Origin: an archaeon
GTDB taxonomy: Archaea > Hydrothermarchaeota > Hydrothermarchaeia > Hydrothermarchaeales > BMS3B
Direction of reading: 5' to 3'
Assembly (NCBI GenBank): GCA_026989875.1
Contig: JALSIP010000012.1
Coordinates: forward strand, 1 to 33,343
DNA length: 33,343 nucleotides
Each line of letters begins with the position of its first letter. The stretch's first letter is position 1. The notes under the pieces are model-generated. The model did no database searches, was not told the origin of the DNA, and saw only the letters and a list, made by a program, of their open reading frames with translations. Made by a program: the position numbers and the translations under genes. Below are positions 1 through 32,486 of this stretch, in pieces.

Positions 1-596
1 GTTCCTGCCAGGTAGCCGGTGGCAAACGCCACGAGCATGGGGAACCAGAGAGATACAGTTATCCCTGCAACCTCGTAGTGAACCACCGGGGGTATGCGTA
101 TTCTGCGTATGAACTCGGCAGCCCTGCTGTTCTGCCTCTCCTCTCTGCCGTTGCCCGAGAGCAGGTCTCTCAGGATTATCAGGGTAATTGCGGTGAGTAT
201 CACTATGAACATCACACTTATATAGAGGTCAGACGCTGCCTTGCCCATGGTCTCAAAGATGTGCTCGTTTATCTTCACCGCTGCCTGCACACCCGCAATA
301 AGCGCGACGAACATGGTTATAGCGAGCTTCTTGTCCACGTGCCCGAGCTCGCCGTGCGCCCTGGAGCCCACGATAGCCTTGCCGAACTTGTGCGTGATGT
401 TTGAGCCCACCGCAAGTATTCCCGGCACACCCAGGTTCATCATGCCAGGAGTCATGATGAAGGCGCCGCCGCTGCCTAAGAAGCCGCTCAGCGTACCGCC
501 TATAAAGCCCAGCAGCACCACCAGCAGCGCTTTCGTAAGTGGCAGGTCAATAAAGGTAACCTCTATGCCAGATGGCGGGGGTACGAATCCACCCAT
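1..596 (-). CDS. TauE/SafE-family membrane permease, C-terminus cut by window edge
   Basis: This open reading frame runs off the left edge and is therefore missing from the ORF track. Read on the minus strand it begins MGGFVPPPSGIEV and continues with a hydrophobic segment and the glycine-rich turn GGTLSGFLGSGGAFIMTPG, which is typical of the N-terminal repeat of TauE/SafE (DUF81) anion exporters. At least three membrane segments are visible in the 198 residues present. The start ATG at 596 has a strong ribosome site (GGAGGTGA). Family members export sulfite, sulfoacetate or other organosulfur anions, but the substrate here is unknown. It is the third gene of a minus operon behind two Usp-type genes, 13 bases after the preceding stop. 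Its GSNITHKFGKAIVG segment differs from the second TauE at 27935-28855, so the two are distant relatives, not a recent duplication. Confidence 0.82.
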   Translation of the reverse strand, partial: MGGFVPPPSGIEVTFIDLPLTKALLVVLLGFIGGTLSGFLGSGGAFIMTPGMMNLGVPGILAVGSNITHKFGKAIVGSRAHGELGHVDKKLAITMFVALIAGVQAAVKINEHIFETMGKAASDLYISVMFIVILTAITLIILRDLLSGNGREERQNSRAAEFIRRIRIPPVVHYEVAGITVSLWFPMLVAFATGYLAG

Positions 597-609
597 CTCT
601 TCACCTCCT

Positions 610-1194
610 TCAGTGCGCCTTTGGCTTTATGCCCAGGTACCTGAGGATGTGCGAAACGGTGTTGCCGTAAAAGAACGCCACCGCAAGCACCGTGCCCAGC
701 ACCAGAGCCACCGAGACCAGACCCCTGTGGGTGAGCACTCCCTTTATCATCCCGAAGGACGTGAATATCACCGCATACAGTGCCAGTGCCGCAGCTCCGT
801 ACATCAGTGAGCTCCTGAGCTCGCTCCGTCGGGGATCCGGAAAGACCACCTGCAGTCCGAGCAGCGACTTCCCCAGCCTCTTCGCCAGCTTTGACTCCGC
901 AAGAAACACAACCTCCGGCTTGAGCGCGTTTATATCCTCTGCCGGGTCACCGTTCACCTTCACCAGCGGCACAACCTCAGCGCCAAGACGCTCAAAAGCA
1001 TCCGCGAGCCTGCTGAGAAGTGCCTCAGCACTCTCCTTCTCCTTCTCCGAGTGCACCCGGTAGAACAGGACCACTCTGTTTCTGATACCTTTTCGGGAAT
1101 TACGGGAAAGCCAGCCTGCGCTAAAAGCTGCCAGCTCCTCAGCATTTCCGCTTTCAACTGCAGTGTTGACCACAACAACAGCATTTCTGTCCAT
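610..1194 (-). CDS. Usp-like domain fused to two C-terminal membrane segments
   Basis: The 194-residue protein opens with a Rossmann-like region (MDRNAVVVVNTAVESG, then VVLFYRVHS) that resembles a divergent universal stress protein, but it lacks the C-terminal Usp ATP-binding signature G-x2-G-x9-G(S/T). From about residue 130 it has two hydrophobic stretches (LMYGAAALALYAVIFTSFGMI and LVSVALVLGTVLAVAFFYG) that should anchor it in the membrane. It lies between a soluble UspA-type gene 14 bases upstream and a TauE/SafE permease 13 bases downstream, so the three are probably co-transcribed. I infer a membrane-tethered regulatory or sensory partner of the permease. The Usp assignment is from overall pattern only, and the membrane segments are the firmer observation. 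Confidence 0.7.
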   Translation of the reverse strand: MDRNAVVVVNTAVESGNAEELAAFSAGWLSRNSRKGIRNRVVLFYRVHSEKEKESAEALLSRLADAFERLGAEVVPLVKVNGDPAEDINALKPEVVFLAESKLAKRLGKSLLGLQVVFPDPRRSELRSSLMYGAAALALYAVIFTSFGMIKGVLTHRGLVSVALVLGTVLAVAFFYGNTVSHILRYLGIKPKAH

Positions 1195-1208: not shown

Positions 1209-1712
1209 TCAGCTCTGGTCCAGCGCGGCTGCCGCGCTGAGCCTCTTGATCCTGGAAGACAAGGAAAGCGCTATCCTGTCTGTGAACTTCAGCAGCTTTG
1301 GCTTGAACACCACTACAGGGCACGGAGAGTTCCTGATAATCTCCTCAATCACGCTGCCTGAGAACAGCCTTGAGAGTCCCGCTCTGCCATCTGTGCTCAG
1401 CAGGATTGCAAAGCTCCTGAGCTTCTTCGCCTCCCTGACCACCTCCTCGGGGAACCTGCCGGCTCTGATGCTGTAATCAGCATCAACCCCGTGAGATTCA
1501 AACAGCTCTGCAACCTCCCTCAGCTGCGTCTCCTTTATTCTCATGTCCTCAAGCACAGGCGTTGCCGCGTCCAGGTTGTAAACATCCTCAACATAAAGCA
1601 GCGTAACCCTGCCACCCCCGTTCAGCCTCCCCATCCACTCCACCATGCTGGGGACAGCCTTCTTCAGCACCTCCACATCCGTTACCGCAACCACAACATT
1701 TTTGTGCGGCAT
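1209..1712 (-). CDS. Universal stress protein (UspA family)
   Basis: The 167-residue protein has a Usp fold pattern: an N-terminal strand (KNVVVAVTDVEVLKKAVPSM), a central strand near residue 37 (VTLLYVEDVY), and the C-terminal region LFSGSVIEEIIRNSPCPVVVFKP, which matches the Usp phosphate-binding loop and last strand. About 30 residues follow the Usp core (KLLKFTDRIALSLSSRIKRL), a basic and partly amphipathic tail that standard UspA proteins of about 140 residues lack. The ATG has the ribosome site GGAGGAATTAAT. It is the first gene of the minus operon leading into the membrane-anchored Usp and TauE/SafE genes. The AT-rich region upstream (1713-1870) carries a plausible TATA element and repeats. 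Confidence 0.85.
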   Translation of the reverse strand: MPHKNVVVAVTDVEVLKKAVPSMVEWMGRLNGGGRVTLLYVEDVYNLDAATPVLEDMRIKETQLREVAELFESHGVDADYSIRAGRFPEEVVREAKKLRSFAILLSTDGRAGLSRLFSGSVIEEIIRNSPCPVVVFKPKLLKFTDRIALSLSSRIKRLSAAAALDQS

Positions 1713-1759: not shown

Positions 1760-1843
1760 ATATTTATTTATTTCCCAAATAATTTGCATAAAATCTTCAA
1801 AATGTCTTCAAAAATCTGGCAAAAGATTTACTACAAATCTTTT
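1760..1843. promoter_or_regulatory. AT-rich control region with TATA-like element, direct repeats and a 9-bp inverted repeat
   Basis: Upstream of the minus-strand usp operon is an AT-rich stretch with a TATA-like run (AAATAAATAAATATT on the minus strand, about 1760-1780). Beyond it are two TCTTCAAAA direct repeats (within 1790-1816) and a perfect 9-bp inverted repeat, AAAAGATTT-ACTAC-AAATCTTTT (1821-1843). The inverted repeat could be a regulator site for the usp operon, or a weak terminator for the minus-strand membrane-protein gene that ends at 1871. The motif AAAATC..TTCAAAATG here recurs in the control region of the other usp operon near 29433-29449. Confidence 0.5.
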
Positions 1844-1870: not shown

Positions 1871-2164
1871 TCATCTGGTGCTCAGGTAAACAAGTATGGA
1901 CAGTGCGATGGTCTCAAACACATCCGCCACCAAGCGGTAGTGGTCAACAACGCTTGAGACATCCACTCCGAAGACAAACACCTTGACTATGGGGGCTGCG
2001 AGCAGCGTTCTGAAGAACAGTGCCAGAGCGAAGAGCAGAAAACCCAGGGTAAAGGTTGATTTCAGCTCTATGTATCGTCTGAAGAATATCCAGACCAGCA
2101 CGCTGAGCAGTAGCAGGTTTATCACGCTGAAGAAGAGCCTGGCTGTCAGAACCGGGTCATCCAT
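1871..2164 (-). CDS. Small membrane protein, paralogue of 2978-3274
   Basis: About 97 residues with three predicted membrane helices: LFFSVINLLLLSVLVWIFF, TLGFLLFALALFFRTLLAAP and VADVFETIALSILVYLS. I chose the ATG at 2164 (MDDPVLTARL) over the TTG at 2173 because GAGG lies just before it. The protein is clearly paralogous to the gene at 2978-3274, sharing RYxEx(K/R)SxFTLGFLLFALALFFRTL and the C-terminal pattern D(H/P)YRL(V/I)ADVFE. It is divergent from a winged-helix regulator gene 67 bases away. From memory, small archaeal membrane proteins of this kind are often found beside ArsR-like winged-helix genes, so it may belong with that regulator as sensor or effector. No enzymatic motif is visible and the function is unknown. 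Confidence 0.75.
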   Translation of the reverse strand: MDDPVLTARLFFSVINLLLLSVLVWIFFRRYIELKSTFTLGFLLFALALFFRTLLAAPIVKVFVFGVDVSSVVDHYRLVADVFETIALSILVYLSTR

Positions 2165-2190
2165 GTGCCTCAAAAAAGAGTGCTGGGGAT

Positions 2191-2231: not shown

Positions 2232-2525
2232 ATGAACCGGAAACTGCTGTGGTGGATTTTCGGAGTTACAAGAGGCGGAGTGGTAAGAGCGAAGATAGTC
2301 AAGATGCTTCATGAGCGTCCGAGCAACGCCAACCAGCTCGCTCAGAAGCTGAAGATGGACTACACCACCGTACGCTACCACCTCAACATCCTGCTGAAGC
2401 ACGGCATCGTGGAAACCTCGGAGCACACCTACATAGTCATGTACTTCCTTACCGACAGGATGCTGGAGCACTGGGATGAGTTTCTGAAGATTTACGAAAA
2501 GGTTACAGGAGGTGGGAAGGATTGA
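2232..2525 (+). CDS. ArsR-like winged-helix transcriptional regulator
   Basis: A 97-residue single-domain DNA-binding protein. It opens with the distinctive MNRKLLWWIF, then GGVVRAKIVKMLHERPSNANQLAQKL and the recognition helix region DYTTVRYHLNIL, which is the classic archaeal ArsR-type winged helix. A wing (GIVETSEHTYIVMYFLTD) and a C-terminal helix follow. No cysteine metal site is seen, so it is probably not a metal sensor. Its TGA overlaps the TTG start of the downstream uspA gene by 4 bases (ATTGA), indicating translational coupling. A close paralogue, identical at roughly half of its positions, sits at 29612-29896 beside the other usp/TauE operon. Likely targets are its own promoter and the neighbouring usp genes (inference). 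Confidence 0.88.
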   Translation: MNRKLLWWIFGVTRGGVVRAKIVKMLHERPSNANQLAQKLKMDYTTVRYHLNILLKHGIVETSEHTYIVMYFLTDRMLEHWDEFLKIYEKVTGGGKD

Positions 2526-2977
2526 AGGTGCTTGTGCCCACTGACGGCTCCTGGGCGGCATACTCTGCCGAGAGGTATGCGGTTGAGCTGTGCAGGAAGT
2601 ACGGAGGCAAGGTTATTGCGCTGCACGTTTATGACCCCGAGCTCAGCCTTGAAACCTGGAAAGCCAAGCTCATGCGGGAGCTTCTCAAGCGGGTGCAGAC
2701 AGACTCAGATGCCCTTGAGATAGTTGACCGGGTTAAGAAGCTCGGGGAGGATGCTGGCATTGAGGTTGAGAGTGTTATAATCAAGGGGAAGGCAAAACCA
2801 TCGGATGAGATAATAAAGTACGTGAGGCAGCGCGGCGATATTGACCTGATAGTCATAGCCCCCACGGGCAAGAGCCACCTGTTCAAGCTTTTTCTTGGCA
2901 GCACCACCGAAGCTTTAATACGGGAGCTTGGAAAGCTTCTAAGCGTGCCCGTGGTTATAGTGCCCAAGCGGGACTGA
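2522..2977 (+). CDS. Universal stress protein (UspA family), TTG start
   Basis: A 151-residue single-domain Usp. It has an N-terminal strand and loop (KVLVPTDGSWAAYSAERYA), a middle strand (KVIALHVYDPE), DLIVIAPTGK, and the ATP-binding region GKSHLFKLFLGSTTEALI before the last strand (VPVVIVPKRD). This is close to the G-x2-G-x9-G-S/T signature of ATP-binding Usps, with the first glycine spacing altered. The TTG start is supported by the ribosome site AGGAGGTGGGAAGG and by the 4-base overlap with the winged-helix gene. Its stop abuts the stop of the convergent membrane-protein gene with no gap. It is probably co-regulated with its upstream partner. Confidence 0.87.
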   Translation: MKVLVPTDGSWAAYSAERYAVELCRKYGGKVIALHVYDPELSLETWKAKLMRELLKRVQTDSDALEIVDRVKKLGEDAGIEVESVIIKGKAKPSDEIIKYVRQRGDIDLIVIAPTGKSHLFKLFLGSTTEALIRELGKLLSVPVVIVPKRD

Positions 2978-3274
2978 CTACCTGGTGCTTATGTACAGAA
3001 AGATGGATAGCGCCACCAGCTCAAACACATCCGCAATTAAGCGGTAGGGGTCAACTATCGTGTGGGTTTCCTGGGACAGGAAGACCAGGCGCAGAATGGG
3101 AGAGGCAAACAGCGTTCTGAAGAACAGTGCCAGAGCGAAGAGCAGAAAACCCAGGGTGAACTCTGACCTCACCTCCAGGTACCTTTTTGTGAATATGTAG
3201 ATGAGGAAGGTGAGAATCCCGAGATTTGCAATGCTGAGAATCATTCTTGCCGCCCATATAACATCCACCGCCAT
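2978..3274 (-). CDS. Small membrane protein, paralogue of 1871-2164
   Basis: About 98 residues with three hydrophobic helices: MILSIANLGILTFLIYIF, FTLGFLLFALALFFRTLFASP and IADVFELVALSIFLYIS. The ATG at 3274 is preferred; the track uses an upstream GTG at 3283. It is paralogous to 1871-2164, and within the FTLGFLLFALALFFRTL segment the two genes are identical over 48 consecutive bases (3110-3157 versus 2003-2050), silent positions included, while the rest has diverged. The two copies lie in the same orientation on either side of the winged-helix/UspA pair. No catalytic motif is seen and the function is unknown. Confidence 0.75.
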   Translation of the reverse strand: MAVDVIWAARMILSIANLGILTFLIYIFTKRYLEVRSEFTLGFLLFALALFFRTLFASPILRLVFLSQETHTIVDPYRLIADVFELVALSIFLYISTR

Positions 3275-3342
3275 GCCTTCCACCCTGCATCTGCTTTTTG
3301 TCGGCGGTGTAACTTAAACTTTTCTCCAGAACTGGCAGCAAA

Positions 3343-3384
3343 TCTATTTATGCAATGAGCGACACAGTCTTCACGGGAGGTGAG
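3343..3384 (+). promoter_or_regulatory. Promoter and ribosome site of the CODH gene
   Basis: A TATA-like element (CTATTTAT, about 3344-3351) predicts transcription starting near 3370-3375. That is downstream of the upstream in-frame ATG (3355) and upstream of the ATG at 3388, which is preceded by GGGAGGTGAGG. Together these choose 3388 as the cooS start. Confidence 0.55.
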
Positions 3385-3387
3385 GAT

Positions 3388-5331
3388 ATGGGAGAGAATT
3401 TAGTTCTAAGAGAAAAGCGTGAGATAGAAGGTAGAAGCGACTCTGACAAAACCATAGACCCGGCAAATCTGGAGATGTTTGAAATCGCCAGAAAGGCGGG
3501 CATGGAAACAGCCTTTGACCGCCTGCTAAGGCAGGAGCCCAAGTGTCCCTACTGCTTCACCGGCGTGAGCTGCAGGAACTGCGCCATGGGTCCGTGCAGG
3601 ATAACTGCAAAGGCTGACAGGGGGGTTTGCGGTGCAACCGCGGACGTGATGGTGGCGAGGGGGCTGCTCAGGAACACCTTAGCTGGCACAGCATCGCATG
3701 TTGACCACGCCAGACATGTGGCGCTTGCGCTGCTGCATGCAGCAAGGGGTGAGGCACCCTACAGGATAAGGGACGAGGCGAAGCTGCGCCGCCTCGGAGA
3801 GACGCTGGGCATAGAGGGCGCCGGCAGCATGCCTGTGGAAAAGCTTGCAGAGGCTGTGGCTGTACTGGCGCTGCAGGAGATAGGTGCCACACACGCCAAC
3901 GGCGGCAGGTGGCTCAGGATGCACGCAACAGAGGAGCGTTTAGAGACCTGGAGCAGGCTGGACGTGCTTCCGGAGGGTGGCATGCTGCCTGTGCTGGAGG
4001 GGATGCACAGGACCAGCATGGGCAATGACGCAGACCCCGTCAATCTGGTGCTGGGCTGCATAAAGGCAGGCATAGCCGACGGCTTTTACGGGCTGCACAT
4101 GAGCACCGACCTGCAGGACGTGCTCTTCGGCACACCGAAGCCAAAGCTCAGCCAGGCTGGAATGGGCGTGCTCAGGGAGGACTGCGTGAACATCGCCTGC
4201 CACGGGCACGTGCCGGTGCTGAGTGAGAAGATAGTGGAGGCAGCAGAGGCTCTTGAGGAGGAGGCGAAAAAGGCTGGAGCAGCGGGCATAAACGTTGTGG
4301 GTATATGCTGCACGGGGAATGAGATTCTTGAGAGGCAGGGCATCCCTGCGGTGGGCAACGAGCTTAACTCTGAGCTGGTTATAGCCACAGGCGCCCTGGA
4401 TGCGGTGGTTGTGGACTATCAGTGCATCTTCCCGGCTCTGGTACCTGCTGCAAAGTGCTTCCACACGAAGATAATAACCACCGCCCCCACGGTGAAGATT
4501 CCCGGAGCTGAGCACGTGGAGTTTGATGAGCGCAGGGCAGATGAGGTGGCGAGGGAAATCGTGCGGAGAGCGATTGAAAACTTCAGGAGCAGGGACAGGA
4601 GCAGGGTTCACATCCCCGAATTCAGGACCCGGGTGCTTGCCGGCTTCAGCGTTGAGGCTCTGCTGGAGGTGCTCTCAAAGCTCAACAGCAGCGACCCCCT
4701 TGCCCCGCTGGTGGAGGCGATATCCTCCGGGGACGTAAAGGGGGCAGTGGCGATAGTTGGATGCAGCAACCCCCGGGTGCCTCATGACATGATGCATGTG
4801 GAGCTTGCAAAAGAGCTGGTGAAGCGTGATATACTGGTGCTCGCCACAGGCTGTGCCGCCCATGCTCACGCAAAGACGGGGCTGATGAAGCCTGAAGGTG
4901 CAGAAATGGCAGGAGAGCGTCTCAGAAGGGTGCTGAAAGTGCTGGGCGAAGCCGCCGGCATGGGAAGCCTGCCCCCCGTGCTCCACTTCGGCTCCTGCGT
5001 TGACAACTCCAGAATCAGCCAGCTCCTGAAGGCTCTCGCTGAGAGGCTGGGAGTGGCAATAAAGGACCTGCCCGTCGCGGCAAGCGCGCCCGAGTACAAC
5101 ACCGAGAAGGCTCTGAGCATAGGCACCTGGGCGGTGGCGCTAGGCATAACCACCCACGTAAATCCGCTGCCCCGAATCACGGGAAGCGAGGTGGTCACGA
5201 GCTTGCTGACCGAGAAGGCAGAGGAGCTGCTGGGTGCGAGATTTCTGCACAGCCCTGATCCCGTGGAAGCTGCTGACATGCTTGAGGAGGTTATACTGGA
5301 GAAGCGCAGAAAGCTCGGGCTGGAGGGATGA
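3388..5331 (+). CDS. cooS: Anaerobic Ni-containing carbon monoxide dehydrogenase catalytic subunit
   Basis: CooS oxidises CO to CO2 (or the reverse) at a Ni-Fe-S C-cluster. The start at 3388 gives 647 residues, normal for the family; positions below use the 658-residue track numbering. Near the N-terminus are C64-P-Y-C67 (D-cluster) and C73, C76, C81 and C92 (B-cluster). C-cluster ligands are visible in order: ACHGHVP (His), GICCTGNE, DYQCIFP, VGCSNPR, ATGCAAHAH and FGSCVDNSR. The catalytic lysine region PEYNTEKA and the histidine-rich SHVDHARH are also present. The D-cluster cysteines form CX2C instead of the common CX7-8C, as in the Desulfovibrio vulgaris enzyme with a [2Fe-2S] D-cluster. 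No cooF, cooC, ACS/CdhC or hydrogenase gene is adjacent, so its electron partner is unknown. It is single-gene and convergent with the iron permease gene. Confidence 0.95.
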   Translation: MGENLVLREKREIEGRSDSDKTIDPANLEMFEIARKAGMETAFDRLLRQEPKCPYCFTGVSCRNCAMGPCRITAKADRGVCGATADVMVARGLLRNTLAGTASHVDHARHVALALLHAARGEAPYRIRDEAKLRRLGETLGIEGAGSMPVEKLAEAVAVLALQEIGATHANGGRWLRMHATEERLETWSRLDVLPEGGMLPVLEGMHRTSMGNDADPVNLVLGCIKAGIADGFYGLHMSTDLQDVLFGTPKPKLSQAGMGVLREDCVNIACHGHVPVLSEKIVEAAEALEEEAKKAGAAGINVVGICCTGNEILERQGIPAVGNELNSELVIATGALDAVVVDYQCIFPALVPAAKCFHTKIITTAPTVKIPGAEHVEFDERRADEVAREIVRRAIENFRSRDRSRVHIPEFRTRVLAGFSVEALLEVLSKLNSSDPLAPLVEAISSGDVKGAVAIVGCSNPRVPHDMMHVELAKELVKRDILVLATGCAAHAHAKTGLMKPEGAEMAGERLRRVLKVLGEAAGMGSLPPVLHFGSCVDNSRISQLLKALAERLGVAIKDLPVAASAPEYNTEKALSIGTWAVALGITTHVNPLPRITGSEVVTSLLTEKAEELLGARFLHSPDPVEAADMLEEVILEKRRKLGLEG

Positions 5332-23593: not shown

Positions 23594-24423
23594 GCAGGAT
23601 TGGTGAAAGGTTTGAGATGCTCAGGGAGAGGGGTGAGGGGGCGCTGGTGGGCTACCTCACCCTTGGCGACCCAACGCCGGAGGATTCGCTGAAGCTCGCC
23701 AGAGCGCTTGCTGAAGAGGTGGACGTGCTTGAGCTGGGGATACCCTTCTCAGACCCCATCGCCGACGGAAAAACCATTCAGGGTGCCACCGACAGGGCGC
23801 TGCGCGCGGGCACAACACCGGAGCACTGCTTCAGAATCGCAGAGGCTCTCAGGGCAGAAGGCACAGAGATACCGCTGGTGTTCATGACCTACTACAACAT
23901 AGTGCTTCAGTACGGAGAGGAGAGGTTCGTGGAGAGGTGCCGCAGGGTGGGGGTTGACGGGATTCTGGTCACTGACCTGCCGGTGGAGGAGGCGGAGGGA
24001 CTGCGCAGAATCTGCAGGAGGCACGGGGTGGACATGATTTTCCTCATCGCTCCGACGACCACGGAGAAGAGGGTGCAGAGAATAGTGAGGAAAGCCTCTG
24101 GCTTCCTGTACTTAGTGTCGCTGCTGGGCACAACAGGCGCAAGAGACAGGCTCAGCGAGCTTACCATAGAGAAAACGCGCTGGGCAAGGCGGTTTGCTGA
24201 CAGAATCCCTCTTGCCGTGGGCTTCGGAATATCAAAGCCTGAGCACGTGAGGGCGGTGCTGGATGCGGGTGCGGATGGCGTGGTGGTGGGGAGCGCCTTT
24301 GTCAGGCTGGTGGAGAGGTACGGTGCAGAGGCAGCACCCCATCTGGTGAGGCTTGCACGGGAGCTTAAGGGCGGCACGCTTTTGGACGTTAGGCTTGCGG
24401 GTGCAGAGAAGCAGGGGCTGTAG
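23590..24423 (+). CDS. trpA: Tryptophan synthase alpha subunit
   Basis: A 277-residue TIM barrel. The catalytic Glu48 and Asp59 lie in LELGIPFSDPIADGKTIQ, and the rest of the signature is visible: FMTYYNIVLQYGEERF, GILVTDLPVEEAEGL, IFLIAPTTTEKR, FLYLVSLLGTTGAR, VGFGISKPEHVRAV, and GVVVGSAFVRLVE. The ATG at 23590 overlaps the preceding lipoprotein stop (ATGA) with GGTGG upstream. TrpA cleaves indole-glycerol phosphate to indole for TrpB. No trpB or other trp gene is in the window, which is unusual since trpA normally follows trpB. The last three codons (GGG CTG TAG) are also the first ten bases of the tRNA-Pro gene. Confidence 0.96.
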   Translation: MSRIGERFEMLRERGEGALVGYLTLGDPTPEDSLKLARALAEEVDVLELGIPFSDPIADGKTIQGATDRALRAGTTPEHCFRIAEALRAEGTEIPLVFMTYYNIVLQYGEERFVERCRRVGVDGILVTDLPVEEAEGLRRICRRHGVDMIFLIAPTTTEKRVQRIVRKASGFLYLVSLLGTTGARDRLSELTIEKTRWARRFADRIPLAVGFGISKPEHVRAVLDAGADGVVVGSAFVRLVERYGAEAAPHLVRLARELKGGTLLDVRLAGAEKQGL

Positions 24424-24487
24424 GGTAGCCTGGTCATCCTCGCGGCTTTGGGAGCCGTGGACTCCGGTTCAAATCCGGGCAGCCCCA
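24414..24487 (+). tRNA. tRNA-Pro (anticodon UGG)
   Basis: A 74-base cloverleaf can be folded by hand. The acceptor GGGGCTG pairs perfectly with CAGCCCC (24480-24486), with discriminator A at 24487. The D-arm contains GGGTAGCCTGGTCATCCT with the usual A14, G15 and GG. The anticodon stem is GCGGC/GCCGT around the loop TTTGGGA (24447-24453), giving anticodon TGG. The variable region is GGAC, and the T-arm is TCCGG-TTCAAAT-CCGGG. There is no intron and no encoded CCA. Its first ten bases are within the trpA coding sequence, and no clear TATA element is seen upstream inside trpA, so it may be processed from a trpA transcript. Confidence 0.93.
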
Positions 24488-27014: not shown

Positions 27015-27935
27015 CTACCCCCTCACCACAACCACCGGCTTGGTAGCCTGGCATATCACCCCGCCGGTGACGCTGCCTATGAGAAACCTGCTGATGTGCC
27101 CCATGCCCCTGGTGCCCATGACCACCATCCCGTACCCCCCGCGCTCCATCTCGCCCAGAATCTCCTTCACCGGGTCGCCTGAAACCACCCTCACATCGTG
27201 CTGGCTTTCAGCGGGTAGAAGGGTCCTCAGGTGCTCCTCAGCAGCGGCTGCATACTCGGAAATCAGCCTGCGCTTCTCCTCATCACCCAGACCGCTGAGC
27301 GATGAGAAGTACCTCACTGCGGGCTCGTTGACCACGTGGAAGAGCTGCAGGCTGGCGCCGAGGCGGGATGCCAGGCTGGAGGCTGCCTCTATAACCGCCT
27401 TTGAAGCACCTGAGTGGTCCAGGGGGACGAGGATGCGCTTTACCTCCCCGGGGAACTCGGAGCGAGGGCCGACCACCATGACAGGCATGCGGGCGCTCCT
27501 CATCACCTTGTCCGCGGTGCTCCCGAGCGCAACCCTGCTGCCCAGGCGCAGCGAGCCCATTATTATCATCTCCGCCCCCCAGCTCTCCGCCTCCCTGACG
27601 ATCTCCACAGCAGGTTCGCCCTTGCGCACCGCGAAGCCCACCCTGAGCCCCTCGTGGGGAATGTTGTCCACCTCCTCTCTGATGTGCTCCAGAGTCTCCG
27701 CGGCGCTGCGGTCTATCTGCTTTTCAAGCCGCCTCGCCAGCTCACCGACCTCGCAGGCGCCCTTCCTGCAGGAGAGCACCTCGTCCATCTTGGTGAACTC
27801 CTCAAGCTCTGTGGTGTCAGCAACGTAGAGCACCCTGAGCTCTTCGGCGCCGAGGCGTGCCGCAAGCCCCACGGCATGCGCAATAACCCGCCTGGAGTGC
27901 TCGGAGCCGTCGGTGCTCACGAGAAGCCTCCTCAT
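27015..27935 (-). CDS. Tandem-domain universal stress protein
   Basis: 306 residues with two Usp domains. The first (about 1-155) begins RRLLVSTDGSEHSRRVIAHAV and contains EMIIMGSLRLGSRVALGSTADKVMRSARMPVMVVGP. The second (about 165-306) begins KRILVPLDHSGASKAVIEAAS and ends MVVMGTRGMGHISRFLIGSVTGGVICQATKPVVVVRG, carrying the full ATP-binding signature G-x2-G-x9-G-S. The insert EVLSCRKGACEVGELARR in domain 1 contains a C-x5-C pair that could be redox sensitive. The ATG at 27935 overlaps the TauE stop by one base (TGATG), with ribosome site GGAGG. It is the last gene of the usp-TauE-usp operon. I infer a stress-response role, possibly linked to the adjacent transporters. Confidence 0.92.
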   Translation of the reverse strand: MRRLLVSTDGSEHSRRVIAHAVGLAARLGAEELRVLYVADTTELEEFTKMDEVLSCRKGACEVGELARRLEKQIDRSAAETLEHIREEVDNIPHEGLRVGFAVRKGEPAVEIVREAESWGAEMIIMGSLRLGSRVALGSTADKVMRSARMPVMVVGPRSEFPGEVKRILVPLDHSGASKAVIEAASSLASRLGASLQLFHVVNEPAVRYFSSLSGLGDEEKRRLISEYAAAAEEHLRTLLPAESQHDVRVVSGDPVKEILGEMERGGYGMVVMGTRGMGHISRFLIGSVTGGVICQATKPVVVVRG

Positions 27936-28855
27936 CACGCACCTCCGAGAGCGCCCCCTGTAAGGGCGTTCTTTATCATGAGCGCACCCACGAAGAGCAT
28001 GAGCACCCCGAAGACCTTCTTGAGGGTGGAGGTGGGTAGATGCCTGTTCAGCCTGGCGCCTATGAAGGTGCCCGCTATGCCGCCTGCCATCAGGAGACCG
28101 CCTATAACCGGGTCAACGTAACCACCCATGAAATAGGTTGCGGTGCCAACGGTGGCTGAGGCGATTATCTGGGTGAGGTCTGTGCCCACTGCCACCTTCA
28201 TGGGAATGCCCAAGAACACCAAACCTGGAACCAGCAGGAAGCCGCCGCCCACGCCCAGAAGCCCGGAGGAGAAGCCCACCGCACCGCCCAGCATGAAGAC
28301 CTGGGGCAGGTTGATGGTGTACTCGGCTATCTTTGTCTTCCTGTATATCTTCATGGGCACAGGCAGCACCATGCCAACATGCAGAAATCTGGCGAGGTGA
28401 TGGAGGGTGCGCCCGATGCGGGTTTCACGGGCTGCAGAAGCTGCGTGCTCGCTGGTTTCGGAGCCTGAGCGCATGAACTTGAGGGCTATGAGGATTACAA
28501 AAACACCAAACACCACCTTGAGCACGGTATTGGGCACGTGCTGCGCAAACCTGGCACCCACAAAAGCCATGGAGGAGCCCGAGACCATGAGTATGAGCGC
28601 CAGCTTCAGGTCAGAGGAGCCGTACCTGTAGTGCTGCAGTGCACCGGAGGCTGCTATGCCTGTGACCTGAAAGAGGCTGGTGCCTATTGCCATCTTTATG
28701 GGCAGCCTGAGGTAGAGGGTGAGAAAGGGCACGATGAGCGTGCCTCCTCCAGCCCCGAGCATGCCGGTGATGCAGCCCACAAGCACGCCGTAAAGCAGCA
28801 CCAGCAGCACATTCACGTCTATGTTTGAGAAGGCAGAGTGAATCACAAAGACCAT
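27935..28855 (-). CDS. TauE/SafE-family membrane permease
   Basis: About 306 residues with eight hydrophobic segments in two repeats. Each repeat has the TauE/SafE glycine-rich signature: GVLVGCITGMLGAGGGTLIVPFLTLYLRLPIKMAIGTSLF and GAVGFSSGLLGVGGGFLLVPGLVFLGIPMKVAVGTDLTQ. A cytoplasmic linker (about 120-170, GSETSEHAASAARETRIGRTL) separates them. The start at 28855 (MVFVIHSAF) has GAGGTGGTGAG upstream; the track start is 10 codons earlier. These proteins export sulfite, thiosulfate-related or organosulfonate anions, and the substrate is unknown here. It sits between two Usp genes in one operon, 10 bases after the upstream stop. Confidence 0.92.
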   Translation of the reverse strand: MVFVIHSAFSNIDVNVLLVLLYGVLVGCITGMLGAGGGTLIVPFLTLYLRLPIKMAIGTSLFQVTGIAASGALQHYRYGSSDLKLALILMVSGSSMAFVGARFAQHVPNTVLKVVFGVFVILIALKFMRSGSETSEHAASAARETRIGRTLHHLARFLHVGMVLPVPMKIYRKTKIAEYTINLPQVFMLGGAVGFSSGLLGVGGGFLLVPGLVFLGIPMKVAVGTDLTQIIASATVGTATYFMGGYVDPVIGGLLMAGGIAGTFIGARLNRHLPTSTLKKVFGVLMLFVGALMIKNALTGGALGGA

Positions 28856-28865
28856 GCTCACCACC

Positions 28866-29369
28866 TCATCGCAGCAGCGCTGCACTCAGAAGAGACTTCA
28901 CGGGCATTCTGTCAATTATCATGCTGTAAAGGCTGCTTCTGGTGTTGTAGGGCATTAAAATCACGGGAGCATCACACTTTTTAGCCAGTCTGCTTGCAGG
29001 AATGCCAAAGGGCACAACACCCACCGCGTTCGTCTCCCTCACAGCCTTAGATGCCTCAAGAACAGGGTCACCTATGCCGGCAATGCCAGTGCACCTGACA
29101 CCCTGCTTCCTGCAGAGCTCCCTGAGAGCGTCAACAACCGCCTGCGCCCTCTCAATGCAGCCTTCGGTGATGAATTTCTTCCTTTCATGCACTGTGAAGA
29201 ACTCATCATCAGCGAGACAGGCATTCTTTACAGTTTTCCTGTTCGCAACACATACCGCATAAATATCTGCTCTGAATCGCTTGACCCAATCAACCGCATA
29301 TTTTGAAATTGAATTCACCGTATCATACGCTTTTAAATCAATTGCAAATACGACAGTGGGGGTTCCCAT
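28866..29369 (-). CDS. Divergent universal stress protein-like protein
   Basis: About 167 residues. The N-terminal strand TVVFAIDLKAYDTVNSISKYAVDWVKRF, the middle strand ADIYAVCVANR, and the closing AVGVVPFGIPASRLAKKCDAPVILMPYNTRSS follow a Usp-like alternating fold, but the ATP-binding glycine signature is replaced (PFGIPASRLAKKC). About 20 residues follow the core. Five cysteines are present, more than in the other Usp proteins here. The ATG at 29369 has the ribosome site GAGGTGG, 7 bases away. It is the first gene of the minus operon usp-TauE-usp and is more AT-rich than its neighbours downstream. The Usp assignment is moderate. Confidence 0.72.
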   Translation of the reverse strand: MGTPTVVFAIDLKAYDTVNSISKYAVDWVKRFRADIYAVCVANRKTVKNACLADDEFFTVHERKKFITEGCIERAQAVVDALRELCRKQGVRCTGIAGIGDPVLEASKAVRETNAVGVVPFGIPASRLAKKCDAPVILMPYNTRSSLYSMIIDRMPVKSLLSAALLR

Positions 29370-29412
29370 GTTATCCACCTCGTTCAGTGTATGATGGTGG
29401 ATAAAACACGCA

Positions 29413-29545
29413 TAATACTTATTTTTTATCCGAAAATCATTTCAAAATGATTTAAAAGTCAGATAAACGTCATTTACATGATTTTTACATCTCTTTTCAC
29501 ACATTTCCCAAACTAATCCAGTTACAGTTAAATTTTTATTTGCAA
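29413..29545. promoter_or_regulatory. Divergent control region of the right-hand usp operon and winged-helix gene
   Basis: The 242 bases between the divergent genes are AT-rich. On minus, ATAAAAAATAAG (about 29415-29427) is a likely TATA element for the usp operon. Immediately upstream of it is a perfect 9-2-9 palindrome, AAATCATTTCAAAATGATTT (29434-29453), a good candidate binding site for the adjacent winged-helix protein. On plus, TTAAATTTTTATTTG (about 29528-29542) is a candidate TATA element for the regulator gene. A further half-site, ATGATTTTTAC, lies at about 29478. Confidence 0.55.
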
Positions 29546-29611
29546 TCTTTTAGTGTTAGCTGTGTAAAACTGGCAGGCAATAGTGGTAATTCCATGGAGA
29601 TTTAAGGGGAT

Positions 29612-29896
29612 ATGAACAAAAAGCTGCTATGGTGGATATTTGCAGTAACCAAGGGTGGCACGGTCAGAGCAAAAATCGTGAAGAGGCTCAGAGACAGGCC
29701 ATCCACCACAAGCCAGCTTGCAAGAGAGTTCAATCTGACATATCAGGACATAAGGTATCATCTCAGAATTCTGAAGGAGCACAATCTGGTTGAATCAAGC
29801 AACACTTCCATTGCGGTTTACTTTGTGACAGATGAAATGGAGAGGAACTGGGATGAGTTCATGAGAATCCTGAAGGCTATCAGGGGCTCTGAGTGA
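29612..29896 (+). CDS. ArsR-like winged-helix transcriptional regulator, paralogue of 2232-2525
   Basis: A 94-residue single-domain protein, MNKKLLWWIFAVTKGGTVRAKIVKRLRDRPSTTSQLAREF, with the recognition region TYQDIRYHLRILKEHNLVES and wing SIAVYFVTDEMERNWDEFM. It aligns end to end with the regulator at 2232-2525, about half of the residues being identical, including the LLWWIF start and the WDEF near the C-terminus. Silent positions have diverged, so the duplication is not recent. No metal-binding cysteines are present. The ATG has AAGGGG at a good distance. It is divergent from the usp-TauE-usp operon, which it probably controls through the palindrome at 29434-29453 (inference). Confidence 0.87.
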   Translation: MNKKLLWWIFAVTKGGTVRAKIVKRLRDRPSTTSQLAREFNLTYQDIRYHLRILKEHNLVESSNTSIAVYFVTDEMERNWDEFMRILKAIRGSE

Positions 29897-29967
29897 GGTG
29901 TCCTGCAGGCTCTGCATATTCACCTGCCACTGGATGCTCAGAATTACGCGTGGGTTTTCTAACCTTT

Positions 29968-29993
29968 CGTTATAAAAACTTTAATCTCGTTAT
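29968..29993 (+). promoter_or_regulatory. Promoter of the grpE-dnaK-dnaJ operon
   Basis: TTATAAAAACTTTAA (about 29970-29984) is a strong archaeal TATA-like element, predicting a start near 29998 and a leader of about 43 bases before grpE. It is bracketed by two CGTTAT direct repeats (29968-29973 and 29988-29993), 20 bases apart, which could bind a heat-shock regulator on one face of the helix. Confidence 0.5.
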
Positions 29994-30040
29994 GCCGGGT
30001 TCAGGAGTTAGCTTACGTTGTTTCTTGTCCCGGTGGTGGT

Positions 30041-30559
30041 ATGAGCGAGGGCTCGGAGTGTGAGGCAAGGGTTAAGGAGCTGGAGGAGGAGCTTGCCAGA
30101 ACAAGGGAAGAGCTGGAGAAAGCGAGGGGTGAGGCTGAGAGCTACCTGAACCGGCTGCGCTACCTGCAGGCAGACTTTGAAAACTACCGCAAACGCATGC
30201 AGCGGGAGCGCGAGGAGCTTGTGCGCACCGCCTCGGAGCGGGTGGTTACCAGGCTCCTGGAGGTGCTGGACAGCTTTGAGCTTGCCCTTGAGAGTGCAAA
30301 GCGCACCAGAGGTAAGAGGGCTCTGGTGGAGGGTATGCAGCTCATCTACACCCAGCTTCGCGGGATTCTTGAGAAGGAGGGCTTAAAGGAAATCCCCTGC
30401 GAGGGTTGCTTAGACCCCTACTACCACGAGGCTGTGGCGGTGGAGGAGAAGGAGGACTGCGAAGATGGCGAGATTCTTGAGGTGCTGCAGAAGGGCTACA
30501 CCTTAAACGGCAAGGTTATCCGCTACGCCAAGGTTAAGGTGGCTAAGAGAGGTGGTTGA
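30041..30559 (+). CDS. grpE: GrpE nucleotide exchange factor for DnaK
   Basis: A 172-residue protein with the GrpE layout. It has a long N-terminal coiled coil ([52 protein letters not shown]), a four-helix middle region ([46 protein letters not shown]), and the C-terminal beta domain ([47 protein letters not shown]) with the signature ending. It releases ADP from DnaK. The length is normal. The ATG is preceded by GGTGGTGG. It is the first gene of the operon; its stop lies one base before the dnaK ATG. Confidence 0.96.
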
Positions 30560-30560
30560 C

Positions 30561-32486
30561 ATGGCTAAGGAGCGCATCCTCGGTATAGACCTGGGCACAA
30601 CCAACTCCTGCATGGCGATTATAGAGGGGGGCGAGCCCACGGTAATCCCCAACGCAGAAGGCGGGCGCACCACCCCCAGCATGGTGGCTTTTACCACCAA
30701 GGGCGAGCGCTTAGTGGGCATGGCGGCGAAGAAGCAGGCAATCGCCAACCCGGAGCGCACGGTCTTCTCAATAAAGCGCTTCATGGGCAAGACCTACGAC
30801 GAGGCAATAGAGGATGTGAAGCGCATGCCCTACAGGGTTGTGCGCGGACCAAAAAACGACTGCAGGGTCAGGATAGACGACAGAGAGTACACCCCGCAGG
30901 AAATCTCGGCGATGATTCTGAAGAAGCTTAAAGAAGACGCGGAGAACTACCTGGGTGAGAAGATAACCAAGGCTGTTATAACAGTGCCAGCCTACTTCAA
31001 TGACTCCCAGAGGCAGGCGACCAAGGACGCTGGCAGAATCGCTGGCTTAGAGGTGCTCAGGATAATCAACGAGCCCACCGCTTCCACGCTTGCCTACGGC
31101 TTCAACAAGGACGAGGAGAACCGCATCCTCGTGTACGATTTAGGCGGGGGAACCTTTGACGTGAGCATTCTTGAGACGGGTGAGGGGGTGTTTGAGGTCA
31201 AAGCCACCGCTGGAGACACCCACTTAGGCGGGGACGACTGGGACCAGAGGATTATAGACTGGCTGATTCAGGAGTTTAAAGAGCAGGAGGGCATTGACCT
31301 GAGCAAGGACAGGATGGCGATGCAGCGCCTGAAGGATGCGGCAGAGCGCGCAAAGATTGAGCTTTCAGGGCTCAAGGAGACGGAAATCAACCTGCCCTTC
31401 ATAGCTGCCGGCGAGGACGGGCAGCCCAGGCATCTCAGCGTCACTCTGACGAGGGCGAAGTTTGAGGCTATGACCAAAGACCTGCTGGAGCGCACCGTTC
31501 AGCCAATGAAGCAGGCTCTCAGCGATGCCAAGCTCTCGCCAGAGGACATTGACAAGGTCATTCTTGTCGGGGGAGCTACGAGAATGCCCATGGTGCAGCA
31601 GCTGGTGAAGGACTTCTTCGGCAAGGAGGCGTACAAGAACATTAACCCCGATGAATGCGTTGCCATAGGCGCGGCGGTGCAGGCGGGCGTGTTAGCCGGC
31701 GAGGTGCGAGACCTCCTGCTGCTGGACGTGATTCCGCTTTCGCTGGGTATTGAGACTCTTGGAGGAGTGTTCACCAAGCTCATAGAGCGCAACACCACCA
31801 TACCCACCCGCAGGAGCAAGGTCTTCACCACTGCAGCAGACAACCAGACAAGCGTTGAAATCCACGTGCTCCAGGGCGAGCGTCCAATGGCGCAGGACAA
31901 CCACAGCCTCGGGCGTTTCATCTTAGATGGCATTCCTCCAGCTCCGCGCGGCGTGCCCCAGATTGAGGTCACCTTTGACATAGATGCCAACGGCATCCTT
32001 CACGTCTCTGCGAAGGATTTGGGAACAGGAAAGGAGCAGAGCATCAGGGTTACAGCTACCACCAACCTGAGCGAGGAGGAGATTCAGCGCATCCTAAGGG
32101 AAGCCAAGGAGCACGAGGAGGAGGACCGCAGGCGGAAGGAGCTGGTGGAGGCGAAGAACGAGGCTGACTCGCTGCTCTACACCTCCGAAAAGACCATAGA
32201 GGAGTTCAGGGATAAGGTGCCGCAGGAGAAGGTTGAGGCGGTGAGGAAGGCGATTGAGGAGCTTAAGGAGGCGGTGAAGGGCGACAACATCCAGGAGATT
32301 AAGAGCAAAACCGAGGCTCTGCGAAAGGCGGTGAGCGAGATAGGAGCTGTGATATACCAGCAGGCGGCTCAGCAGGCACAGGCGCAGCAGGCGCAGGGGG
32401 AGCAGGCGCAGGCGGCGGGCAGCGGTAACGGGCAGGGCGAGAAGGTTATAAACGCGGAGTATGAGGATGCAGAGAAGAAGAGCTGA
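30561..32486 (+). CDS. dnaK: Molecular chaperone DnaK (Hsp70)
   Basis: A 641-residue Hsp70. The ATPase domain has [21 protein letters not shown] (phosphate 1), [48 protein letters not shown] (phosphate 2) and [17 protein letters not shown]. The linker is [16 protein letters not shown]. The substrate-binding domain and helical lid follow, ending in an Ala/Gln-rich tail ([18 protein letters not shown]) and [10 protein letters not shown]. The ATG at 30561 is chosen over the track GTG at 30552 because GAGGTGGT precedes it. DnaK is found in only some archaea, and its sequence here is very bacteria-like, which fits the accepted view of ancient acquisition from bacteria. It lies 5 bases before dnaJ. 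Confidence 0.98.

Follow-up and report, generated by a model that had tools for sequence, protein, structure and literature searches.

Two putative regulator-controlled Usp-TauE/SafE transport modules on a Hydrothermarchaeota contig

Introduction

What does it mean that a single archaeal contig carries, in two places, a small regulator gene facing an operon of usp genes and a TauE/SafE permease gene, and did the two gene runs arise together? The window analyzed here is the whole 33,343-base contig C12 of a 1.44-Mb Hydrothermarchaeota metagenome-assembled genome (MAG), and its genes have their nearest named relatives in Candidatus Hydrothermarchaeota, Pyrohabitans and Hydrothermarchaeum MAGs. 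We call the right-hand patch module A (RegA, a leading Usp, TauE_A and the tandem Usp, Usp2x) and the left patch, headed by RegB, module B (Table 1). An initial annotation of the window had proposed that the module was assembled twice around duplicated regulators. From phylogenetic trees we conclude that the regulator and the leading Usp, arranged head to head, were probably duplicated as one unit, whereas the tail of TauE and trailing Usp probably had a different history.

Results and Discussion

In the regulator tree (86 rows, 97 columns), RegA and RegB were sisters (95/79), as expected of the paralogues they had been taken for; the two proteins are 52% identical (alignment A1) and form the sole close pair of regulators in their own genome. 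Both fell within a 99/89 clade made up of TauE-linked regulators together with one regulator of G019, whose 10-kb contig shows zero TauE, and one fragment in G012, while the haloarchaeal, ANME (anaerobic methanotrophic archaea), Thorarchaeota and RegC regulators fell outside it. The leading Usps of modules A and B likewise formed one clade (98/96); their trailing Usps formed no common clade. A single clade of TauE_A and TauE_B was rejected by the approximately unbiased test (p-AU 0.0007) in the phylum TauE tree of 46 rows, and so was a clade of these two with a groundwater TauE (0.0034). TauE_B was sister to this groundwater TauE and then to a clade of TauE-Usp fusions, and TauE_A formed a separate long branch. 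When TauEs of other archaea were added, some of them joined the B/fusion clade and TauE_A remained outside it (100/99). The TauE proteins, which had been called only distant relatives, are thus not a duplicated pair. Since the regulators are sisters and the leading Usps form one clade while the TauEs do not, the head appears to have been duplicated and the tail recruited separately. The proposal of a module assembled twice around duplicated regulators came close to this; it fell short in that the duplicated unit probably exceeds the regulator and includes the leading Usp, as the single clade of the two operons' leading Usps indicates. A wholesale recent duplication of the module was ruled out by the TauE tree.

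We compared gene neighborhoods in sister genomes, as the initial annotation had suggested, and found that modules A and B both recur. The phylum searches covered 23 searchable genomes, and all genomes used were MAGs. RegA, TauE_A and the tandem Usp occur together in G003 (L023); in the groundwater archaeon G014 (L150) module A also has the leading Usp and a gene for a small membrane protein, sTM; and G004 and G002 hold parts only. The module B gene set (RegB and the Usp coupled to it and, in divergent orientation, sTM, a leading Usp, the membrane-anchored protein, TauE_B and a trailing Usp) is whole or almost whole in G002, G005, G007, G008 and G010, and present with genes missing in G003. Given this conservation in sister genomes, the module cannot be put down to genes that merely happen to lie side by side. 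Other loci that join the regulator to TauE carry different TauEs (L151, L078); at L151 (G014) the regulator lies between two different TauEs, one of them extremely divergent, with tandem Usps on one side. In G009, module A is broken in the regulator/usp intergenic region, one part at the start of C41 and the other at the start of C46 (L022, L158), which is probably an assembly break. An intact-looking TauE of half length (132 residues, one repeat; L149:8098-8496, minus strand) lies beside a regulator-sTM pair in Hydrothermarchaeum profundi and might function as a dimer.

The coupling of Usp to TauE was counted over 51 TauE genes in the fetched phylum loci plus the two of the window (53 in all). 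Usp coupling is strong: it was seen in 27 of the 53, in nine through fusion to a pair of Usp domains and in 18 through a same-strand usp gene at a distance of at most 150 bases. A homologue of the regulator lay within 4 kb of 13 of the 53, the window's two included, so the linkage of regulator and TauE is a recurring one; chance would give about 0.3 such neighborhoods by our own estimate from 25 regulator places in 23 genomes, with loci that are not independent. The TauE-Usp-Usp fusions are 610-680 residues long and occur in nine genomes (among the loci are L040-L044 and L171). One is found in the window's own genome (G000:C120, about 27900-29890; L162:5900-7888, L183), where Pfam confirmed the fusion, placing TauE at 41-302 and the best Usp stretch at 477-614. 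In G010 (L170) a fusion-clade TauE and Usp are encoded as two overlapping genes. In the phylum TauE tree, a 100/99 branch parts all 30 Usp-linked TauEs from all 16 that are Usp-free. The fusion proteins lend support to the putative control of transport by Usps that the initial annotation had suggested. The literature searches that we made found nothing on TauE-Usp coupling.

The four genes assigned to module A in the initial annotation (regulator, usp, TauE/SafE and tandem usp) are real and were correctly placed. RegA and RegB are winged-helix proteins: both exceed the Pfam cut-off for HTH_20 and HTH_5 (HTH_5 scores of 38.0 and 41.1 bits against a cut-off of 22), and there is a match to PDB 2p4w (4.9e-7). 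Neither regulator contains a cysteine and both thus lack the cysteine-based metal/persulfide site of ArsR/SmtB, which excludes thiol or metal sensing via regulator cysteines. The leading Usp of module A had zero Pfam matches even at E 0.1. Its AlphaFold model (predicted local distance difference test, pLDDT, 75) had TeaD of Halomonas as the best Foldseek match (E 1.6e-6), and the top matches were Usps nearly throughout. Since the model matches Usp structures, the protein is a divergent, degenerate Usp without the nucleotide motif, and calling it usp was justified by the fold, though not by Pfam. TauE_A scored 186.9 bits against PF01925 (cut-off 32.6; model positions 2-237) and by hydropathy has eight hydrophobic segments that resemble transmembrane (TM) helices; a PDB sequence search with it gave zero relatives. 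Its start is most likely the ATG at 28855, which is in the same place as the starts of its orthologues.

The PF00582 cut-off was passed by Usp2x, by the Usp that overlaps RegB and by the leading Usp of module B. The motif G-2X-G-9X-G(S/T) is strict only in the C-terminal domain of Usp2x (as G-2X-G-9X-G-S), has one-residue variants in the other two, and is absent from the leading Usp of module A. Because it retains the nucleotide motif, the C-terminal domain of Usp2x is likely the sensor. In both modules Usps stand in the operon of the transporter, as same-strand genes that overlap or adjoin. The GTGATG start of Usp2x overlaps the stop of TauE_A; given this and the 4-base overlap of RegB and Usp, translational coupling of both gene pairs is likely.

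The left patch had been described as having the same classes of genes as the right one, and the classes do agree, but the gene order differs and TauE_B is cut by the contig end. The TauE_B fragment scored 59.9 bits against PF01925 and a full orthologue 128 bits; in the orthologue's locus (L028) a single Usp comes next. The initial annotation had overlooked three genes of this patch, for two paralogous 100-residue membrane proteins (the two sTM copies) and a membrane-anchored protein, the N-terminus of which we suspect to be Usp-like. The second sTM lies beside cooS (3355-5331), which encodes a monofunctional CO dehydrogenase, a neighborhood shared by the sister genome G002. On the other side of the window, grpE and dnaK come after RegA (29612-32486) and trkH also adjoins module A. 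A tRNA-Pro (TGG) gene lies at 24414-24487, between trpA-like and eRF1-like genes.

Table 1. Positions of the genes and candidate control elements of modules A and B in the window.
Feature	Positions	Strand	Remarks
RegA	29612-29896	+	94-residue winged-helix regulator, ArsR-like HTH_20/HTH_5; N-terminus MNxKLLWWIF conserved
Leading Usp of module A	28866-29378	-	divergent from RegA; likely ATG start 29369
TauE_A	27935-28885	-	TauE/SafE (TSUP) permease, PF01925 6e-55; likely true start ATG 28855
Tandem Usp (Usp2x)	27015-27938	-	two Usp domains, PF00582 4.9e-48
TTTGGGAAAT element	29503-29512	-	upstream of module A operon; candidate operator
Palindrome AAATCATTT-CA-AAATGATTT	29434-29453		perfect 9+9; RegA/usp intergenic region; second candidate operator, AT-rich
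RegB	2232-2525	+	RegA paralogue; heads left module
Usp	2522-2977	+	4-bp overlap with RegB; kept in six sister genomes
sTM	1871-2173	-	100-residue membrane protein with three helices; divergent from RegB
Leading Usp of module B	1209-1712	-	Pfam PF00582
Membrane-anchored protein	610-1194	-	two C-terminal TM segments
TauE_B	3-596	-	truncated by contig end
Second sTM copy	2978-3283	-	between Usp 2522-2977 and cooS
TTTGGGAAAT element	1770-1779	-	at putative BRE/TATA upstream of module B operon

For the control regions, we noted that the window has two copies of TTTGGGAAA, against 0.07 expected; one precedes each operon, and both point the same way. The 10-mer TTTGGGAAAT has three exact copies genome-wide, the third of them inside a coding frame. 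A looser form of the motif gave 14 matches in seven orthologous module B promoters, as against 2.0 in shuffled sequences (0 of 1000); these promoters have one copy at the putative B-recognition element (BRE)/TATA and another roughly 45-80 bases upstream. A search with a 15-base degenerate motif was set aside as near-circular, being built on the two sites, and the exact 10-mer count was used instead. We regard TTTGGGAAAT as no more than a candidate for an operator or a promoter element. A palindrome as good as that between RegA and the leading usp was found in 11 of 1000 shuffles.

Taken together, we favor, with somewhat more confidence than doubt, the reading that the window holds two paralogous regulator-controlled transport modules, each with a control head, in which a winged-helix regulator faces a divergent operon that begins with usp, and a transport tail of TauE/SafE and a single or double trailing Usp domain. 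The regulator would bind the intergenic region between itself and the operon, with TTTGGGAAAT or the AT-rich palindrome as the probable site, and would set the level of the usp-tauE-usp operon. The Usps would be the cytoplasmic regulatory part of the permease: the nucleotide-binding trailing Usp domain may inform TauE of the energy or second-messenger status, in the manner of TeaD with TeaABC, and the degenerate leading Usp may serve as an adaptor. The permease is proposed to transport a small sulfur oxyanion, such as sulfite. In the ancestral arrangement the three-helix sTM would pass a signal to the regulator; RegB still stands beside an sTM, and RegA, having presumably lost its neighboring copy, may use one near RegB or none.

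Several observations weigh against this reading. The branch that joins the two regulators has only its 95/79 on 97 columns, and the regulator data fail to reject the other order, that of the TauEs (p-AU 0.39). The 10-mer TTTGGGAAAT was found by inspection, pairs of shuffled regions share a 10-mer with at least three G/C in 26 of 1000 cases, and the motif was not found before the module A operon of G014. A conserved palindromic operator was rejected: each operon is preceded by one perfect palindrome, but that of module B is not kept among orthologues. RegA is without an sTM neighbor in the window, and this neighbor is missing in three of the four module A loci. One module A (G009) is spread over two contigs, and the comparison rests on MAGs throughout. 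Finally, the substrates of TSUP proteins are poorly known and unpredictable from sequence (PMC5840216).

Because the TauE order is compatible with the regulator data, a single ancient duplication of the whole module has to be weighed, in which TauE_A and TauE_B would be deep paralogues and the fusions would have arisen from the B side after regulator loss. We hold such a history to be rather unlikely. The phylum TauE tree alone permits it if rooted between TauE_A and the rest, and the regulator and leading Usp did duplicate together; yet it requires several regulator losses, the trailing Usps are not sisters, and TauE_B is closer to the fusions and to some other-archaeal TauEs than to TauE_A (100/99). 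Separate recruitment of the two tails remains our preferred account. The poorly known substrates of TSUP proteins also speak for a permease that imports or exports a non-sulfur compound (an organic acid, for example), with the module linked to carbon metabolism through cooS, which abuts module B; G002 likewise has a cooS end at that place. We think this unlikely as well, since cooS is not near module A, characterized TauE/SafE family members handle sulfur compounds, and genes of the sulfite reductase family occur in 22 of the 23 phylum genomes. The window's own genome carries two genes of that family in tandem and one more besides, and sulfite reduction is attributed to the phylum (PMC6775978, PMC6759336). 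A loose stress-gene cluster, with the regulator, Usps, TauE, TrkH and GrpE-DnaK separately transcribed and the Usps unrelated to TauE, would suit the abundance of Usps and the position of trkH and grpE-dnaK next to module A, but it is improbable in view of the overlap of the tauE_A stop with the usp2x start, a gene order kept across genera, the TauE-Usp-Usp fusions and a TauE clade that matches Usp linkage.

The preferred reading of two regulator-controlled modules has several counterparts among known systems. By analogy with these, a Usp encoded next to a transporter or fused to it would act as its regulator; examples are TeaD-TeaABC (cited in PMC3673472) and the Usp domain of KdpD (PMC8214093). 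In TeaD-TeaABC of Halomonas elongata, where the Usp regulates the ectoine TRAP transporter, the Usp is likewise encoded beside the transporter, and TeaD is the best structural match of our leading Usp. Here, unlike there, the permease is of the TauE/SafE family, Usps stand before and after it, the leading Usp is without the nucleotide motif, and the regulation is putative. Archaeal fusions of transporters with Usps include amino-acid permease-Usp-Usp, Na+/H+ exchanger-Usp and CLC-Usp (PMC3673472, PMC12159084); they differ from ours in the permease family, and TauE is unmentioned in the main text of both papers. TauE_A matches the model of the TauE/SafE (TSUP) sulfite exporter family, PF01925, over nearly its full length, but is coupled, unlike those exporters, to Usps and an archaeal regulator. 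The module is a new combination of known protein classes, conserved and recurrent, its regulatory head apparently kept and its permease exchanged. Usps are ubiquitous in archaea and their function is mostly obscure, and a TauE clade that coincides with Usp linkage, and that has the TauE-Usp pair in both operon and fusion forms, offers a clean system for the question of whether Usps gate transporters.

The regulator-sTM pair is the least explained and potentially the most interesting part. In 64 of 67 loci outside the phylum, the gene immediately after that of the regulator encodes an sTM homologue, and the loci are found in haloarchaea, Methanosarcinales and ANME-2, Methanoperedens, ANME-1, Thermoplasmatota, Thorarchaeota and others. 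Since TauE is present in only nine of 80 regulator loci, all but one of these in Hydrothermarchaeota or groundwater archaea, we take the TauE linkage to have been added later, to a pairing of regulator and sTM that is older, with sTM rather than TauE as the ancestral partner of the regulator. The model of sTM (pLDDT 86) has three long helices and one short one. A Pfam/NCBIfam scan of 38 members gave single-member matches at chance level only, and PDB yielded no sequence match and no fold match with E below 1. The searches made found no literature on the pair; a haloarchaeal plasmid record labels it as a winged helix-turn-helix protein and a hypothetical protein. ArsR-type regulators (PDB 2p4w) share with RegA and RegB the HTH domain and small size, but RegA and RegB have no metal/sulfur-sensing cysteines and do have a special LLWW N-terminus and a membrane-protein partner. 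As a working analogy for the pairing we take SoxR/SoxT1B of Hyphomicrobium denitrificans, a repressor and a membrane protein passing a sulfur-related signal (PMC11582611). SoxT1B, however, is a transporter of the YeeE-like type, to which the three-helix sTM is unrelated, and the two cysteines with which SoxR senses have no counterpart in RegA or RegB, which lack cysteine altogether; a signal relayed by sTM in place of cysteine sensing is the most natural guess. It is possible, although we lean slightly away from it, that regulator and sTM form an unrecognized membrane signaling pair found archaea-wide, in which sTM would sense a membrane or external cue and hold or release the regulator via its LLWW N-terminus, and which in Hydrothermarchaeota would have been hooked repeatedly to Usp-gated TauEs of different origin. 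Conserved from haloarchaea and ANME to Thorarchaeota and without a family name, the pair lends itself to study in haloarchaea that are open to genetics; homologues of the regulator occur in Haloarcula, Halorubrum and Natrinema. In Natronobiforma (L080:6977-8529), two regulator-sTM pairs lie tail to tail. One further pair (L107:6998-7550) is in a record labeled Proteobacteria, through either transfer or a misbinned archaeal contig.

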